From: Acidobacteriota bacterium
GTDB taxonomy: Bacteria > Acidobacteriota > Thermoanaerobaculia > UBA5066 > Gp7-AA6
Reading direction: 5' to 3'
DNA length: 64,000 bases
Assembly (NCBI GenBank): GCA_027307335.1
Contig: DAHUXD010000018.1
Location: 62,001-126,000, forward strand
Below, one piece after another: positions 43,215 to 52,170 of the stretch. The translations under genes and the position numbers were made by a program. The notes under the pieces were generated by a model that made no database searches, was not told the origin of the DNA, and saw nothing but the letters and a program-made list of their open reading frames with translations. How positions within the stretch are numbered: the stretch's first letter is position 1; the number at the start of each line of letters is the position of its first letter.

Positions 43215-43721
43215 ATGGCCTCGACCTCGCCGCTGCCCGAAGCCCCCGACCGGCGGCCCCGGCTCTCCGCCGGGTTCCTCTGGATCATCGTCTTCAAGCT
43301 CGCGAAGTCGGCCGCGTTCTTCCTCCTCGGCGCCGTCGCGCTGCGCATCGCCCGCCTGCCCCACCACTCGGAGCCGCTCGAGGTCGCCCGTCTCCTCGGT
43401 GTGAACTCGAGGAGCGTCCTCGTCCAGCATCTCTCCCTGATCGTCTCCGCGCTGACGACCCGCGAGGTCGAGGCGATCGGCGCCGCCTGCATCCTGATCG
43501 GCCTCGTCTTTGCCGCGGAGGGAACTCTGCTCGCGGCGCGCGTGCCCTGGGCTCCCTACTTCACGATCGTGCTGACCGCGCTCGGCATTCCCCCGGAGCT
43601 CATCGAGATCGCGCGCCGCCCGGAGAGCCTCCGGCGCTACGCGCTGCTCGCGATCAACGTCGCGATCCTGATCTATCTCTGGCGCCGGCGGAACGAGTTC
43701 AGGAGCCGGCGGCCGGGCTAG
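43215..43721 (+). CDS. DUF2127 family membrane protein
   Basis: A 168-residue membrane protein with about four helices and the DUF2127-type opening LSAGFLWIIVFKLAKSAAFFLLGAV, later ACILIGLVFAAEGTLLAAR, PYFTIVLTALGIPPELIEI and INVAILIYLWRRR. The function of the family is unknown. An in-frame ATG at 43164 would add 17 residues; the later ATG better fits family length. It is divergent from the metalloprotease gene, and its last 23 bp overlap the 3' end of the selenoprotein-like gene on the other strand. Confidence 0.8.
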   Translation: MASTSPLPEAPDRRPRLSAGFLWIIVFKLAKSAAFFLLGAVALRIARLPHHSEPLEVARLLGVNSRSVLVQHLSLIVSALTTREVEAIGAACILIGLVFAAEGTLLAARVPWAPYFTIVLTALGIPPELIEIARRPESLRRYALLAINVAILIYLWRRRNEFRSRRPG

Positions 43722-44364
43722 CGTCGGGGAACCGCTTCGCGAGCCACGCCTCGACCTCCTCGGGGTGATACCCGAAGGGGCCCGGCTTTCCCTTGTAGAC
43801 GATCGCGCCGTTCTCGTCGATGACGTAGAGGCGCTCCGGCCAACCCGCGTACGCCTGGTTCGCGGGATTCTCGATCGGATCCACGACGAGCGGGATCGAG
43901 TAGTGGAACCGCTTGACGAAGTCGTTCGCGATCTTCAAACGATCGGCTTGATTCGTCGGCTGCGGATAGCAGACGCCCTCCGTCACGTTCGAGTCCATCT
44001 GCCACTCGTCGAGCGGGTGGGCCTCCTTGATGTAGAGCGTCAGGAACTGCACCCGGTCGCCGTACTTCTTCTGCAGCGCCTCCATCCGCCCGACCGAGCG
44101 GCGGAACGGGGGTCAGGTGAAGCTGCCGAAGATCAGGACCGTGGGCTTGCCGGCGAGCCTGTCGGCGAGACGGACCGGCGTCGCGCCATCCAGGGCGAGG
44201 AGACCCACGTCGGGCGCGCGGTCTCCCACCTTGAGCGTGCCCTCCTGCCGCTGGTCGTAGCGGAGCATGCCGATGAGATTGCGCGGGCCGCCGATCATGT
44301 AGGTGAATCCGCAGAGCGCGAGCAGCGCGACGACGCCGAGCCCGATCAGAATCTTTTTGATCAT
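43699..44364 (-). CDS. Deiodinase-like thioredoxin-fold selenoprotein (TGA = Sec)
   Basis: A single frame of 222 codons interrupted only by TGA at 44115-44113 (codon 84). It encodes an N-terminal membrane anchor (MIKKILIGLGVVALLALCGF), VGDRAPDVGLLALDG, then PTVLIFGSFT-TGA-PPFRRSVGRMEALQKKYGD and FLTLYIKEAHPLDEW, plus PLVVDPIENPANQAYAGWPERLYVIDENG. The FGSxT-U-PPF motif is the active site of the iodothyronine-deiodinase-like family, where the TGA position is selenocysteine (Cys in other bacteria). The reading frame stays perfectly in register on both sides, and a SECIS-like hairpin follows. It is probably a membrane-anchored thiol/peroxide redox enzyme. An annotation that treats TGA as stop would give two broken pieces. 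The alternative is a nonsense mutation. Confidence 0.85.
44086..44104 (-). promoter_or_regulatory. Bacterial SECIS-like hairpin after the in-frame TGA
   Basis: Downstream of the TGA (44115-44113), CCGCC (44104-44100) pairs with GGCGG (44090-44086). The loop contains GGT at 44095-44093, that is 18-20 bases after the TGA. In the E. coli fdhF element the loop GGU lies at almost the same distance. The fold is read by eye only; local GC content makes hairpins common. Confidence 0.5.
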
Positions 44365-44378
44365 GCGATTCTCACCAT

Positions 44379-44406
44379 GGGGTCAGGTCTCTGAAAGTGT
44401 GACTTT
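44379..44406 (+). repeat. REP copy, left of the RAYT gene
   Basis: GGGGTCAGGTCTCTGAAAGT followed by GTGACTTT. It contains the stop codon of the transposase gene: TGA on the minus strand is part of TGACCCC, and the last residues VTLSET are encoded by the repeat. Confidence 0.85.
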
Positions 44407-45354
44407 GATCAACGCCGCCCGCATCTTAGCAATTCGGCGACGGAATTCGGGATCCGCCTCGAGTAGGTACTCGGCGGAGGTGGCGAGTTGCGATGCCGCC
44501 CAACGCTCGACGTCCAGACGGCTGGCGAACTCGGATTCCCGTAAACCGGCCTCGTGCCGGGCCAGATAAGCGACGGCAAGCCGAAGGGGATTTCGCCGCT
44601 TCTGGATGAGTAGCTCCCTCGAGCATCGCAGTTCCTGCGTCGCGACATCCACGATCGCCTCGAGGCTCGGCCGCACGCAATGACGCTGCCTCCAGGGAGC
44701 CTCTCGCCCCATCCCCCCCGCGTTGATTCGTCGCTGAATCTGTTTCCGGAACGACGAGCCCCCGAGAACGAACTGCTTTCGGATGTTGACCCAGGGAGCG
44801 CGCGGATTCGCGAGACCGGCCGCGACGAACTGTTGATATCGATCGCCGGCGAGCGCTCCCCCGCCGAACTGCGCCATCGTCCAGTCGACTTCCAGCCATG
44901 CCGTGGGCCTTTCGAGGCCTGCAGTCGCCCTGTAATTGCTCCACTGCCAGTCCTCGGGACGTCTCGAAAGACCGGCCCGAACCGGATTCAGCACCACGTA
45001 GCGAACGATCTCCAGGAGGTGCGCTTCCTTCTCGATCAGAATCGAATGAAACCGCCCCTGAAAGAGGTGCCCCACTCGCTCGTGACGCCGATTGAATCGC
45101 TGTGTGTAGATACCGTTGATCTGCCTCATTCCCCGAGAGAGGTTCGCCTCCGGGGTCTCGACCAGGAGGTGGTAATGGTTGCCCATCAGGACGTAGGCGT
45201 GAACTCGCCAGCGCAGGATCGTCACCGCGCGACGGAACAGTGTCAGAAGGAAGCGGCGATCCTCATCGTCGCGGAAGATGTCCCGTTTCTCGTTTCCGCG
45301 GCAGGTGACGTGCCAGACCGCGCCGGCGTGATCCAGCCTCAGTGGACGGCTCAT
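44383..45354 (-). CDS. REP-associated tyrosine transposase (RAYT)
   Basis: A 323-residue Y1/HUH transposase of the TnpA-REP group: MSRPLRLDHAGAVWHVTCRG (typical start), HAYVLMGNHYHLLVE with the HUH histidines, the catalytic Tyr in INGIYTQRFNRRH, and GHLFQGRFHSILIE. The C-terminal part (SLEAIVDVATQELRCSREL) resembles a DnaA-type helix-turn-helix that may recognise REP DNA. RAYTs are single-copy, domesticated-looking enzymes that mobilise REP/REPIN repeats. A GTG at 45393 inside the right REP would add 13 residues; MSRPLR is the family start. There is no strong ribosome site. The gene sits immediately upstream of the selenoprotein-like gene on the same strand. Confidence 0.9.
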   Translation of the reverse strand: MSRPLRLDHAGAVWHVTCRGNEKRDIFRDDEDRRFLLTLFRRAVTILRWRVHAYVLMGNHYHLLVETPEANLSRGMRQINGIYTQRFNRRHERVGHLFQGRFHSILIEKEAHLLEIVRYVVLNPVRAGLSRRPEDWQWSNYRATAGLERPTAWLEVDWTMAQFGGGALAGDRYQQFVAAGLANPRAPWVNIRKQFVLGGSSFRKQIQRRINAGGMGREAPWRQRHCVRPSLEAIVDVATQELRCSRELLIQKRRNPLRLAVAYLARHEAGLRESEFASRLDVERWAASQLATSAEYLLEADPEFRRRIAKMRAALIKVTLSET

Positions 45355-45388
45355 CCACTGACTAGTTGTCTCGAGAACGTCCACCGAG

Positions 45389-45451
45389 GTCACATTTTCA
45401 GAGACCTGACCCCATTTGCTTCGAAAGTCACATTTTCAGAGACCTGACCCC
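45389..45451 (-). repeat. Two REP copies right of the RAYT gene
   Basis: Two minus-strand copies of the repeat, at 45389-45413 and 45424-45451, each containing TTTTCAGAGACCTGACCCC on the plus strand and preceded by GTCACA. They are inverted relative to the left copy at 44379. The second ends three bases before the stop of the formamidase-like gene. Confidence 0.85.
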
Positions 45452-45453
45452 AA

Positions 45454-46464
45454 CTATTTAGGAAGGGCTTTTTTCGGGACTTTGACCAGGACCGTGTAGA
45501 GAGGGTCCACCATCTCGACCAAGGGGGCGCGGGCGGCCTGCGAGACGAACTCGTACGCGTCGAGCGTCGAGAGGCCGGTCTTCTCCATGACCCAACCGAC
45601 CATGTCCTTGAACGCGATCCGCGCCGCGTCCTCGAGCGGCCGTGCCGCGCCGAGCGACATCATCCACTCCTCGTTTTCGATCCGCGGCCACGGCGTCTCG
45701 CGATGCTTGATCAGATCGATCGTCAGCTCGACGTTCAGCGCGCCCTCGATCGCGGTGCCGATGATCTCGCCGTCGCCCATCGCGAAGTGCCCGTCGCCGA
45801 AGGAGACGAGCGCGCCCGGCACGCGCACGCCGAGGTACACCGTGTTGCCGGCGCGGATCTCCGGACAGTCCATGTTCCCGCCGAACGAGTCGGGGACGAT
45901 CGTCGAGCGCGCCTCGCCGTTTCCGGGCGCGACGCCGAGGCACCCGAGAAACGGCGCGAGGGGCACCTCCCACGTCTTCTTCCCGTCGGTCGACTTCGTG
46001 CGGGCGATTCCTTTCGCGCGATCGACGTCGTAGAACCAGACCGTCTCGGGAAGATCGGGCACGAGCATCGCGGTGCGATCGGTACCGTTCAGCGCGCCGA
46101 ATCCCGGGAACGACGACGAGATCCCGTACGCCCGCGCCGGCTCGAGCCTCTCGATCCGCACGACGAGCGTGTCGCCCGGCTCCGCGCCATCGACGTAGAA
46201 CGGCCCGGTCTGCGGGTTGTCGTGGCCGATCGGCGCCACCTTCGACGGCAGCTGGTCCGGACGCGTGACGGCGCCGTCGTAGCAGTCCTCCGTCCACGTC
46301 ACGATGCGCGTGCCGGGGGCGATGTGCCGCACGGGCGCGACGCCCCCGAACGTGTACGCGAGCTCCTCGTGCTTCGGCACGTAATTGAGGACCGGCGGGT
46401 CCGCCGCGGCGAGGACCGAGGCGACGCCGGCGAGGAGGACGGCCGGGACCGTCTTCAGGACCAT
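45454..46464 (-). CDS. Acetamidase/formamidase family protein, exported
   Basis: A 336-residue protein with a signal peptide (MVLKTVPAVLLAGVASVLAA). It belongs to the acetamidase/formamidase (FmdA-AmdA) family: VRHIAPGTRIVTWTEDCYDG, DNPQTGPFYVDGAEPGDTLVV, GCLGVAPGNGEARS, FGGNMDCPEIRAG, LGVRVPGALVSFGDGHFAMGDGEI. Family members hydrolyse small amides to ammonia and an acid; most are cytoplasmic, so an exported form is less usual. The ATG at 46464 has an AAGGAG ribosome site and fits the signal peptide; an in-frame ATG further upstream lacks both. REP repeats lie directly behind the stop. Confidence 0.88.
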   Translation of the reverse strand: MVLKTVPAVLLAGVASVLAAADPPVLNYVPKHEELAYTFGGVAPVRHIAPGTRIVTWTEDCYDGAVTRPDQLPSKVAPIGHDNPQTGPFYVDGAEPGDTLVVRIERLEPARAYGISSSFPGFGALNGTDRTAMLVPDLPETVWFYDVDRAKGIARTKSTDGKKTWEVPLAPFLGCLGVAPGNGEARSTIVPDSFGGNMDCPEIRAGNTVYLGVRVPGALVSFGDGHFAMGDGEIIGTAIEGALNVELTIDLIKHRETPWPRIENEEWMMSLGAARPLEDAARIAFKDMVGWVMEKTGLSTLDAYEFVSQAARAPLVEMVDPLYTVLVKVPKKALPK

Positions 46465-46547: not shown

Positions 46548-49322
46548 ATGCTCAGAAGACCCGGACTCCGAAGCCTCTCCGCGGTCGCCCTGTGTCTGCC
46601 CGCGTTCCTCGCGGCAGCCGCGACCGTCGCGACGCCCTTCCAGGAGACCGGCGTCGAGATCGCCGCGCGCCAGGAGGCCGCCGAGGGGATCGCGGGTCCG
46701 AAAGCGCCGCGGCCGCGATTCCCGAGTCCACGCCGTCGCGCGCCCGGACCGCCCACGCGCACGGGATCGTCCGTCGCGGCCGCACCCACGCCGCGGACGA
46801 GTCCGCGCGGGATCGGGCCCGCCACACAGACGCTGGGCGTGAACTTCCTCGGCGCGAGCCTCGCCGACTCGAACGCGTACCCGCCGGACACGTCCGGCGC
46901 CGTCGGGCCCACCCAGTTCCTCGTCGGCGTCAACGGCCGGCTCCGAACGTTCGCCAAGGCGACCGGGTCCTCCGACGGCGGCCTGAACGCCGACACCGAC
47001 GTCTTCTTCGCTTCCGTCGCGAACGGCCAGCCGACGTTCTCGCCCCGCGTGCGCTACGACCGGACGTCCGATCGGTGGTACGTCACCGCGCTCAACTTCG
47101 GCGTCTCCTTCACGAACAACCGGATCCTGTTCGCCGCCTCGAGCGGCGGCACGATCTCGGGCGCCACGATCTGGACGTTCTCCTTCTTCGAGCACGATCT
47201 CGATGCGCCGGCCGGGGACACGGACTTCTTCTTCGACGTCGGGACGCTCGGCATCGACGCCTCCGTGCTCGTCGTCGGCGGCAACCTCTTCGACGGGACG
47301 GGCGCCTTCCAGGGAACGAGCGTCCATGTGGTCCGCAAGTCGGCGCTCTGGACGGGCGGAGACCTGTCCGGCGGCAACGCGGTCGCCTACCGCAACCTGA
47401 CCGGCACGCCGGGCGGGACGGGCCCCTGGGCTCCCACGGGCGTCGACAACCTGTCGGACGCCGCCTCGGCCGCGTTCTGGGTCGTCGGGGTCAACAACGT
47501 CCTGCCCGAGACGAACGAGCTCGTCTTCCGCAAGATCGCCTTCAGCGCGCCGGGCGCGTGGCCGCCCTCGTCGATCTCCGCGAACGTCCTGCTCCCGGTG
47601 CCCGCGACGGCGCTGCCGCTCTCGGTCCCGCACCTCGGGAACACGGGCGGCGCCGACGGCGAGCTCGACGCGCTCGACGACCGGCTCTTCGACGCCAAGA
47701 GCCGCGGCGGACTCGTGTGGACCGCGCAGAACATCGCCGTCGACGCGACGGGCGCGGGCTCCGACGCGGGCGACCGCGACGGCGTGCGCTGGTACGAGAT
47801 CGACGTCACCGGCGCGTCGCCCGCGCTCGTGCAGTCGGGGACCCTCTTCGACGCCGCCGCGTCGAACCCGCGCTTCTACTGGATGCCGTCGATCATGGTG
47901 ACGGGCCAGGGCCACGCGGCGGTCGGCGCGAGCGCCGCCGGCGCCGCCGAGCACGCGAACGCGGTCACGGCGGGCCGCCTCGCCACGGACCCCGCGGGCT
48001 TCCTCGCCGCGCCGTCGCTCTTCACCGCGAGCGCGACCGCGTACAACCCGGCCGCGGACCCCGGCGGTCCGCGGCGCTGGGGCGACTTCTCGTTCACGAG
48101 CCTCGACCCCGCCGACGACATGACGCTGTGGACGATCCAGGAGTACTGCAATCTCACGGATTCGTGGGGCGTGCGGGTGGTCCAGCTGCTCGCGCCCCCG
48201 CCGGCGACGCCGGCGAGCGCCGTCCCGGCCACGATCGCGTCGGGCCAGAGCTCCGTCCTCGTCACCCTCACCGGCGTCTCGACGGCGGGCGCCGCCTTCT
48301 TCGACGCGCCGCCGGGCTACGCGAAGCGGCTCGCGGTCGACGTGCCGGACGGCGTCACGGTCAACGGCACCACCGTCGTCGACGCGACGACGCTCACGCT
48401 CGACCTGAACACGGTCGGCGCGCCCCTCGGGCCGCGCACCGTCACCGTCACGAACCCGGACGGGCAGTCCCGCACGAGTGCCGCGCCGATCCTGACGCTC
48501 GGGCTCGGCGGCTCGAGCCCCGCGGTCGCCGCGATCACGCCGACCTCGGGCGACGCCGCCGGCGGACAGGCGGCGACGCTCACCGGAACGGGTTTCGTCT
48601 CGGGCGCCACCGTGACGATCGGCGGCGCGGCCTCGACGGGCGTCGCCGTCAACGGCTCGACCTCGGCCGACCTGACGGTGCCGGCGCTGACGCCCGGCAC
48701 CCTCAACGACGTGACGCTCGTCAACCCGGACACCCGGAGCGGCACGCTGTACGCCGGCTGGTTCGCCGACTTCCTCGACGTGCCGCAGGCGGACCCATTT
48801 CACGCCGACGTCGAGACGATCTTCCGCGACGGGATCACCGCGGGATGCGGCGGCGGCGCCTACTGCCGCAACGACGCCGTCTCGCGCGCCCAGATGGCCG
48901 TGTTCCTGCTGAAATCGAAGCTCGGCGCCGCGCACGTGCCCCCGTCGTGCGCCGGGGTCTTCGGCGACGTCCTCTGCCCGTCGCTCTTCGCGGACTGGGT
49001 CGAGGAGCTGTACGCGGCCGGCATCACGGGCGGATGCAACGCGAGTCCGCTCCTCTACTGTCCGGACGCTCCCGTCACCCGCGCGCAGATGGCGGTGTTC
49101 CTCCTGAAGGCCTCGCTCGGATCGAGCTACGCGCCGCAAAACTGCACGGGAGCGGTCTTCAACGACGTGCCGTGCTCAGGGGGCATCTTCGATCCGTGGA
49201 TCGAGGACCTCGCGCGGCGCGGGATCACGGGCGGGTGCGGCGGCGGCGCCTACTGCCCGGCGGCGCCGAACACGCGCGGACAGATGGCGGTGTTTCTGGT
49301 GAAGGCGTTCAGCCTGCCGTAG
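46548..49322 (+). CDS. Large secreted TIG/SLH-like surface protein
   Basis: A 924-residue exported protein. It has a signal peptide, a Pro/Arg-rich linker (about 45-90), a domain of about 450 residues with beta-propeller character (NAYPPDTSGAVGPTQFLVGVNG ... VRYDRTSDRWYVTAL ... RRWGDFSFTSLDP), beta-sandwich segments, a TIG/IPT domain (ITPTSGDAAGGQAATLTGTGF) and three C-terminal SLH-like repeats (ITGGCGGGAYCPxxPxTRGQMAVFLVK). The TIG plus SLH-like tail is nearly the same module as in the protein at 6007-8934. The propeller part resembles secreted proteins that often accompany proteases, but no catalytic motif is seen. It is divergent from the formamidase-like gene. Confidence 0.85.
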   Translation: MLRRPGLRSLSAVALCLPAFLAAAATVATPFQETGVEIAARQEAAEGIAGPKAPRPRFPSPRRRAPGPPTRTGSSVAAAPTPRTSPRGIGPATQTLGVNFLGASLADSNAYPPDTSGAVGPTQFLVGVNGRLRTFAKATGSSDGGLNADTDVFFASVANGQPTFSPRVRYDRTSDRWYVTALNFGVSFTNNRILFAASSGGTISGATIWTFSFFEHDLDAPAGDTDFFFDVGTLGIDASVLVVGGNLFDGTGAFQGTSVHVVRKSALWTGGDLSGGNAVAYRNLTGTPGGTGPWAPTGVDNLSDAASAAFWVVGVNNVLPETNELVFRKIAFSAPGAWPPSSISANVLLPVPATALPLSVPHLGNTGGADGELDALDDRLFDAKSRGGLVWTAQNIAVDATGAGSDAGDRDGVRWYEIDVTGASPALVQSGTLFDAAASNPRFYWMPSIMVTGQGHAAVGASAAGAAEHANAVTAGRLATDPAGFLAAPSLFTASATAYNPAADPGGPRRWGDFSFTSLDPADDMTLWTIQEYCNLTDSWGVRVVQLLAPPPATPASAVPATIASGQSSVLVTLTGVSTAGAAFFDAPPGYAKRLAVDVPDGVTVNGTTVVDATTLTLDLNTVGAPLGPRTVTVTNPDGQSRTSAAPILTLGLGGSSPAVAAITPTSGDAAGGQAATLTGTGFVSGATVTIGGAASTGVAVNGSTSADLTVPALTPGTLNDVTLVNPDTRSGTLYAGWFADFLDVPQADPFHADVETIFRDGITAGCGGGAYCRNDAVSRAQMAVFLLKSKLGAAHVPPSCAGVFGDVLCPSLFADWVEELYAAGITGGCNASPLLYCPDAPVTRAQMAVFLLKASLGSSYAPQNCTGAVFNDVPCSGGIFDPWIEDLARRGITGGCGGGAYCPAAPNTRGQMAVFLVKAFSLP

Positions 49323-50069: not shown

Positions 50070-50292
50070 CGGTGGTTCCTTTCGCGAGTCGGTGACGGAG
50101 GCGGCAAGATACAGCGGAGCGTCCTCGAATGTCACCGCGGCGGCCAGGGCGCTGACATCCCGCGTCCCGTGAGCCGCGTCACCGGAGACAAACCCCTCGG
50201 GCGCCTATCGTTGCGCGGGACCTCCCCGTGGCCCTGCTCTTGCGATGAATCGGACCACCACGGGGAAGCCGCGTCCCGACAGGAGGCCGACG

Positions 50293-52170
50293 ATGGAGCG
50301 CGAAACACGACGCCGCATCTTCCTCGGGATCGCGGCCTTGGCCGCCGCCCTCACGGCGACCGCGGCGACGATCCCGAGCCCGTACCGGCCGACCGCGTCG
50401 GCTTCCGCCGCGGCCGTCCTCGCCGCGGAAGGCCAGGAGGGACTCGACCTCGACGCGCGCGCGCTCGCGTCGCTCCGCGCCGGCGGAAAGGTGCTCGAGG
50501 TCGAGGGCTTCCCGCTCGCGCCGGGCGCCTCGGGGACACTGAGGCTGACGCGCTTCGAGGTCGCGACGCCCGACGCGAAGATGACGATCCAGGGTTCCGA
50601 CGGAGAGAAGACGTTCCCACTTCCGCCGGTCACGCACTACTCCGGCATCGTCGAGGGAGAGACGGACTCGTCCGTGTACCTCGGTCTCGCCGACGACGGA
50701 CTCGTCGCCTACGTCCACTCGAGCTTCGGCCACGCGTTCGTCGGACCGAACGAGGAGAAGACCGGCTTCGTCGTGCGCCTGGGGGACTCGCCCCTGAACG
50801 CGAAGGCGAGCCAGACCTCCTTCCACTGCCCCTCCGAGGAGCTTCCGGCCGCGCTGACGGCCATGGCCGAACCGGTGATCGCCGCGGCCGCCCCGGCGGC
50901 CCCGATGGTCGCCGGGTTCAAGCAGGCGCTCGTCCGCGTCGAGACGGACAACCAGCTCTACCAGTTCTTCGGCAACGATCCGGGGAATCTGACCGTGTAC
51001 GTCCTGCGGCTCTTCGGCGCGATCAACGTCATCTACGACCGCGACCTCGCGATGCACCTCTCGGTCAACGAAATCCACATGTGGGCGTCGGCCGATCCGT
51101 ACACGGGCGGAGACACGTTCACCCAGCTGATGCAGCTCGGCGACTGGTGGCACGCGAACAAGCCGATCAACTCCAACCCCCGCACGATGGTCCACTACCT
51201 GAGCGGCCATCCCGTTTCCGGCGGCATCGCCTGGCTCGGCGTCCTGTGCTCGGGCGACTTCCCGAACGGATCCGACTGGGGCGGCGGGTACGGGCTCACG
51301 CAGGTCTACGGCACGTATCCGCTCTCGTTGTGGGATCAGGACGCATCGGCGCACGAGATGGGCCACAACGCCGGCTCGCCGCACACGCACTGCATGGGAC
51401 CGCCCACGTACCCCGACTGGACGGACAAGTGCTACAACGGCGAGAGCGGCTGTTACTCCGGTACGGTGCAGAACCCCGGCGCCGGCAACGGCACGATCAT
51501 GAGCTACTGCCACCTTCTCGGCTGGCAGTACATGTCTTTCGTCTTCCACCCGCGCTGCATCAACGACAAGATGCTGCCGGAGATCAATTCGGCGAGCTGC
51601 CTCACCTCGCCCGCGACGTTCGTCGACGTGCCGACGACCGATCCGTTCTTCCACTGGGTCGAGACCGTTTATCAGAAGGGCGTGACCGGAGGCTGCAACG
51701 CGAGCCCGCTCATGTACTGTCCGACGAGCCCCGTCACCCGCCAGCAGATGGCCGTCTTCCTGCTGAAGTCGGAGCACGGTTCCGCCTACACGCCGCCCGC
51801 CTGCGCGGGAACATTCCCGGACGTCCCGTGCCCCAGTCAGTACGCGAACTGGATCGAGCAGCTCGCCGCGGAAGGCGTGACCAGCGGCTGCGGAAGCGGC
51901 AACTACTGCCCGACCGACCCGGTGACGCGGCAGCAGATGGCCGTCTTCCTGCTGAAGACGGAGCACGGGTCGGCCTACGCGCCCCCCGCCTGCGCCTCGA
52001 ACCCGTTTGCCGACGTGCCCTGCCCCAGCACCTACGCGAACTGGATCAAGCAGCTCGTCGCGGAGGCCATCACGGGCGGCTGCTCGGGCGGCAACTACTG
52101 CCCGACGGACCCGGTCACCCGCGCACAGATGGCGGTGTTCCTGACGAAGACGTTCAACATCGGCTGGTAA
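50293..52170 (+). CDS. Secreted M12B-like zinc metalloprotease with SLH-like tail, copy 1
   Basis: A 625-residue exported protease. It has a signal peptide (RRIFLGIAALAAALTATAAT), a prodomain-like region (about 30-210), and a reprolysin-like catalytic domain with HEMGHNAGSPHTH (zinc motif HExxHxxGxxH) and IMSYCHLLG at the Met-turn. Three SLH-like repeats follow (VTGGCNASPLMYCPTSPVTR-type), ending FLTKTFNIGW. An AGGAGG ribosome site fixes the ATG at 50293. The next gene is a close paralogue in tandem. The Cys-containing repeats probably hold the enzyme at the cell surface or serve secretion. Extracellular protein degradation is the likely job. Confidence 0.9.
   Translation: MERETRRRIFLGIAALAAALTATAATIPSPYRPTASASAAAVLAAEGQEGLDLDARALASLRAGGKVLEVEGFPLAPGASGTLRLTRFEVATPDAKMTIQGSDGEKTFPLPPVTHYSGIVEGETDSSVYLGLADDGLVAYVHSSFGHAFVGPNEEKTGFVVRLGDSPLNAKASQTSFHCPSEELPAALTAMAEPVIAAAAPAAPMVAGFKQALVRVETDNQLYQFFGNDPGNLTVYVLRLFGAINVIYDRDLAMHLSVNEIHMWASADPYTGGDTFTQLMQLGDWWHANKPINSNPRTMVHYLSGHPVSGGIAWLGVLCSGDFPNGSDWGGGYGLTQVYGTYPLSLWDQDASAHEMGHNAGSPHTHCMGPPTYPDWTDKCYNGESGCYSGTVQNPGAGNGTIMSYCHLLGWQYMSFVFHPRCINDKMLPEINSASCLTSPATFVDVPTTDPFFHWVETVYQKGVTGGCNASPLMYCPTSPVTRQQMAVFLLKSEHGSAYTPPACAGTFPDVPCPSQYANWIEQLAAEGVTSGCGSGNYCPTDPVTRQQMAVFLLKTEHGSAYAPPACASNPFADVPCPSTYANWIKQLVAEAITGGCSGGNYCPTDPVTRAQMAVFLTKTFNIGW

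Follow-up and report, generated by a model that had tools for sequence, protein, structure and literature searches.

In our study, a gene at positions 43699–44364 of the reverse strand was predicted to encode a functional selenoprotein of the deiodinase family (PF00837), a reading to which we assign a probability of about 0.93. The positions are those of the window, the stretch of 64,000 nucleotides of acidobacterial DNA that was analyzed. The gene contained 221 codons followed by a TGA stop (43701–43699), and codon 84 was a TGA (44113–44115, reverse strand) that is read here as selenocysteine (Sec, U). The preliminary description had noted two fragments in the same frame separated by one TGA, and the coordinates of the open reading frames bear this out: 44364–44113 (reverse strand) encoded 83 amino acids, 44085–43699 (reverse strand) encoded 128 amino acids, and the two were joined by the single TGA at 44115–44113. 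The junction FGSFT-TGA-PPF named there was also found, and was translated as FGSFT-U-PPFRR. A gene of this kind is easily taken for two broken fragments.

The N-terminal hydrophobic stretch that had been described as a membrane anchor was real; residues 2–23 (44296–44361, reverse strand) formed a helix in the AlphaFold model, and are predicted from the sequence and the model to anchor the protein. The catalytic domain of the deiodinase/thioredoxin fold started at about residue 45 (43699–44232, reverse strand), was recognized by PF00837, NF038285, and Foldseek, and contained an Omega-loop that starts with EAHPxDEW.

Conservation of the in-frame UGA and genomic context

The TGA at codon 84 was present in all the 26 aligned proteins, including that of the window. 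Homologues with 58–69% identity over the best segment (one with 47%) all contained TGA at this codon, and the TGA-bearing homologues came from Acidobacteriota, Myxococcota, and Planctomycetota. The homologue search and the phylum survey, after the removal of duplicate genomes, gave, apart from the window itself, 30 distinct loci homologous to it with TGA at codon 84, and 27 of these contained the T-U-P-P-F-R motif. The preliminary description had expected cysteine at codon 84 in homologues, which was not the case for the close ones: none of them contained cysteine at this codon, and no C-P-P-F-R form was found among the surveyed homologues. Cysteine forms were found only in distant PF00837 relatives with other motifs (CPVYR, CPNFR, CPVF, and CPMT).

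Relatives with the TGA and a disrupted downstream frame had been named as a sign of a pseudogene; the homologues were found to keep both the TGA and intact frames. The divergence downstream of the TGA relative to the homologue L013 was 0.16, 0.15, and 0.40 at the first, second, and third codon positions, respectively, and the low values at the first two positions indicate that the downstream frame is under coding constraint. An in-frame UGA at a redox Sec/Cys position was kept among the homologues, as in bacterial selenoproteins.

Several loci of the survey deserve separate mention. Three records titled Polyangium sp. (Myxococcota; L015, L016, and L017), which are not marked as MAGs, carried the UPPFR gene with the TGA, together with a hairpin with a GGUC loop. 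Two distant PF00837 loci with a TGA contained U-P-Y-C-G (L074, genome G281) and U-P-P-F-L (L042, genome G040). In L026/L043 (G006:C326:11541-12539) a second thioredoxin-like open reading frame adjoined the deiodinase-like gene, with 39% identity over residues 43–119, and is possibly a tandem relative. The plasmid search gave one distant match, in Mycolicibacterium, with 29% identity.

The deiodinase-like gene is solitary. Positions 44386–45393 contained a transposase gene of the Y1/IS200 type (RAYT), with inverted repeats on both sides, and the element ended 12 nucleotides upstream of the start codon; the native promoter may therefore be displaced, and the element may affect the promoter of the selenoprotein gene. 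The whole RAYT/IS200-type element covered positions 44377–45464 of the window, with inverted repeats of 29–38 nucleotides and tandem direct repeats (GTCACATTTTCAGAGACCTGACCCC). The next gene was convergent and encoded a DUF2127 membrane protein, and a related gene adjoined the homologue in one other genome from the family of the organism. No conserved neighbours pointing to a substrate were found, and neighbours were kept only in closely related genomes and in the one same-family genome that shares the DUF2127 gene. Elsewhere in the window, 46548–49322 and 50245–52170 (forward strand) encoded large, secreted-looking proteins with C-terminal repeats (FxDVPxxxPFxxWIExLxxxGITGGC...VTRAQMAVFLLK), which judging by their sequence are probably SLH-like surface modules.

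The downstream hairpin and the selenocysteine machinery

A bSECIS-type hairpin with the core CCGCTC[GGUC]GGGCGG was found at 44086–44101 (reverse strand), with 17 nucleotides between the UGA and the loop. The GGU that the preliminary description placed in a hairpin loop 18–20 bases after the TGA is indeed there, in a GGUC loop at 18–21 nucleotides. The bSECIS model contains a loop of 3–9 nucleotides whose first two positions include a G, a stem of 4–16 base pairs, and a distance of 16–37 nucleotides from the UGA (PMC13188914), and the hairpin of the window, with its loop of 4 nucleotides, stem of 6 base pairs, and spacing of 17 nucleotides, fits this model. The stem was lengthened to 7–8 base pairs in homologues.

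Taken alone, the hairpin of the window was no more stable than its shuffles (z = −0.10), its comparison with synonymous recoding gave p = 0.094, and the fold of minimum energy was paired differently, around a larger loop. Most homologues contained a GG loop at exactly the same spacing of 17 nucleotides, closed by stems that were very different in sequence. Covariation was found in two loop classes, of 4 and 3 nucleotides; in each class none of the 500 shuffles reached the observed score or the observed percentage of paired positions, and slid-partner controls scored far below the observed covariation. A third group of homologues contained a GAAGATC[GGC]GATCTTC hairpin located 4 nucleotides further downstream, and in L026 and L047 the stems were weak or interrupted. 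As a predicted element, the hairpin is convincing only through the comparison across homologues, and is weak evidence in the window sequence alone. The earlier proposal of a bacterial SECIS holds as regards a conserved, covarying hairpin across homologues, whereas the single-sequence fold was not significant.

The machinery for Sec was examined in the assembly to which the window belongs (4.37 Mb, 96.5% complete). All four genes on whose presence the preliminary description had made its proposal depend were found: selA (3.2e-137), selB (324.5 bits), selD (1.1e-111), and the gene of tRNASec (selC; 66.5 bits) with the anticodon tca (UCA). The same genome contained three genes of formate-dehydrogenase-type molybdopterin oxidoreductases, each interrupted by one in-frame TGA, after which HAP, HIP, or HGP was encoded, and each with a stable SECIS-like hairpin with the loop GGTCT or AGTCT. 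These TGA codons occupy the Sec position of the family, in the U-H-x-P motif of formate dehydrogenases. The three genes, which are further selenoproteins of the genome, were located at C44:5878-7149 (L079), C22:37448-39046 (L080), and C33:111755-112870 (L081). The sel genes, the tRNASec, and the three TGA-bearing genes make it very probable that this organism decodes UGA as Sec. Among the sampled genomes of the phylum, 57 of 60 contained selA above the cut-off; this suggests that the use of Sec is nearly universal across the sampled lineages, and with selA in nearly every genome the co-occurrence of the gene with the machinery is uninformative as evidence.

The TGA could instead be a nonsense mutation or an assembly error, which would make the gene a pseudogene. 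The mobile element directly upstream and the non-significance of the hairpin when taken alone agree with this, whereas the same TGA in 30 distinct homologues of three phyla, an intact and constrained frame after it, and a complete Sec machinery speak against it, so that a pseudogene or a sequencing error is effectively excluded. It is also very improbable that the UGA, which interrupts an otherwise intact frame, is read as tryptophan or another standard residue by a general reassignment of the codon, or is passed by leaky read-through. The terminal stop of the gene is itself a TGA, so UGA still terminates translation within this mRNA, and no comparable hairpin was found after that stop. The UGA of codon 84 also aligned with the Sec position of DIO2 and DIO3 and with the cysteine of distant homologues, and a tRNASec (UCA) was present; general reassignment was rejected on these grounds. 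The reading as a Sec-containing deiodinase-like protein, which the preliminary description had put forward, is supported by the sel genes, by the conserved and covarying hairpin, and by the TGA with intact frames in homologues.

Family, fold, and active site

The read-through protein matched Pfam T4_deiodinase (PF00837) over residues 38–211 with an E-value of 5.6e-38 and 131 bits, above the curated cut-off of 27 bits. NCBIfam NF038285 ('deiodinase family protein', 347 amino acids) gave 200.7 bits at residues 45–208, below its cut-off of 250 bits, and only the C-terminal half of the model was matched (profile positions 177–340); the domain is shared with this family, whereas the profile up to about position 176 has no counterpart in the protein of the window. 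The sequence search of the PDB found the catalytic cores of mouse DIO3 (4tr3, 3.6e-25) and mouse DIO2 (9h48, 2.4e-23). The AlphaFold model, built from 26 sequences, showed a mean pLDDT of 90.8, and its first two Foldseek matches in the PDB were mouse DIO2 (1.4e-15) and DIO3 (2.7e-15), followed by a ResA-like thiol-disulfide oxidoreductase (1.8e-9). By the model and Foldseek, the thioredoxin-fold catalytic domain was most similar to the deiodinases among PDB structures.

In the alignment, the window protein kept the equivalents of S167, T169, U170, P171, Y197, E200, H202, W207, and R225 of DIO3, and those of T169, U170, P171, Y197, E200, and H202 were conserved in all the 26 aligned proteins. 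The kept residues are those to which studies of DIO2 and DIO3 assign roles in the proton relay and the Omega-loop (PMC11592359, PMC7506546). The second position before Sec was mostly Phe or Tyr; it is Cys in DIO1 and DIO3. His219, Tyr257, Phe258, and Arg275 of the deiodinases were not kept in the window protein, where P136, P176, and P194 stood in place of His219, Phe258, and Arg275 of DIO3, respectively. These three residues contact the thyronine in DIO3; Phe258 and Arg275 were present in none of the 26 aligned proteins, and His at the position of His219 was found only in the distant L074. The position of Phe258 was Pro in all 26, and that of Arg275 was Pro, Thr, Met, and others. The Pro at the position of Phe258, which precedes the strand 177–182, would correspond to the cis-Pro typical of the thioredoxin fold.

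The Omega-loop is bordered on its C-terminal side by Cys132 (codon 43969–43971, reverse strand; VCYPQP). Each of the 11 proteins in the clade of the window, whose support in the tree was 98/97, contained this residue, and all the other aligned proteins lacked it; Cys132 may be a clade-specific resolving thiol.

Substrate and relation to known deiodinases

In the mechanism that we propose, SelB would bind the hairpin that closely follows the UGA of codon 84 and bring Sec-tRNASec to this codon, giving a protein of 221 residues with an N-terminal membrane helix and a domain of the thioredoxin/peroxiredoxin fold, in which Sec would be the nucleophile. The catalytic domain would face the periplasm. 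The selenolate would reduce an oxidized substrate, for which a hydroperoxide or a disulfide/sulfenyl compound appears likelier than a halogenated aromatic, and Cys132 or an external thiol could then resolve the selenenyl intermediate, for whose recycling a periplasmic thiol-disulfide system would be responsible. We thus infer an extracytoplasmic Sec redox enzyme, with thiol or peroxide reduction likelier than dehalogenation; this substrate class is predicted with modest confidence, and iodothyronine is probably not the substrate.

A different substrate is possible, though doubtful, for the same selenoprotein. The enzyme could be a reductive dehalogenase, with its selenolate directed at the C-I, C-Br, or C-Cl bond of a halogenated compound from the environment, in the way that the animal deiodinases act on thyroxine, while the His/Glu/Tyr/Ser/Thr relay donates a proton. 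The deiodinase-specific start of the Omega-loop (EAHPxDxW) and the S/T/Y/E/H relay were kept across the bacterial Sec clade, and DIO2 and DIO3 were nearer by sequence and fold than any peroxiredoxin or ResA-type protein. However, the replacements at His219, Phe258, and Arg275 described above argue against dehalogenation, as do the reduced activity of the Phe258Pro mutant of DIO3 (PMC7506546) and the lack of conserved halogen-related neighbours.

The preliminary description treated bacterial members as little studied, which overstates the novelty. A report of 2005 had already described deiodinase-like proteins of bacteria, some with Sec and some with Cys, together with bacterial SECIS elements and a suggested redox role (PMC1088965), and the bacterial family is listed as UxxC in reviews of 2022 and 2026 (PMC9312934, PMC13188914), the later of which states that the functions of such selenoproteins are largely unknown (PMC13188914). 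Among the papers searched, only a goat feeding study mentioned Acidobacteriota together with deiodinase. The known bacterial deiodinase-like selenoproteins (the Sargasso Sea family) share with the window protein the domain PF00837, the active-site Sec, the bacterial SECIS, the bacterial origin, and the suggested redox role, whereas the clade-specific Cys132 and the N-terminal membrane helix set the window protein apart. The proteins of the reviews are UxxC, whereas that of the window is UPPFR, with Phe87 instead of Cys at the +3 position; among the aligned homologues only L074 (UPYC) was of the UxxC type. The family is not new, and the Sec-only UPPFR form with its Cys132 clade is a modest refinement.

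Vertebrate DIO1–3 (4tr3, 9h48) share the N-terminal membrane anchor, the thioredoxin fold, S-x-T-U-P-P-F, the Omega-loop EAHPxDxW, and the relay residues with the window protein; their SECIS is in the 3′UTR, whereas that of the window directly follows the UGA. The ResA/TlpA-type and peroxiredoxin oxidoreductases share the fold and a Cys or Sec that opens the first active-site helix, whereas the window protein lacks CxxC and contains Sec and the deiodinase-specific Omega-loop.

In the tree, mouse DIO2 and DIO3 grouped with the bacterial UPPFR Sec group with a support of 98/98 and long branches; this group contained 22 Sec rows, 2 animal rows, and 1 Cys row. A bacteria-only clade was not rejected (AU p = 0.063), and the nesting of the animal deiodinases within the bacterial group is therefore unproven. 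It is a speculative and rather improbable proposal that the membrane-anchored, Sec-only UPPFR clade of Acidobacteriota, Myxococcota, and Planctomycetota both carries out the reductive dehalogenation of compounds in the environment and gave rise to the animal deiodinases.

Since a gene of this kind is reported as two by gene callers, the annotation of Sec-containing relatives of the deiodinases in soil bacteria is probably incomplete. The Polyangium sp. records that carry the gene make its function and selenium incorporation testable in a real host. The UPPFR type, which keeps the deiodinase relay without the residues that contact the thyronine, could reveal the chemistry that preceded hormone deiodination.
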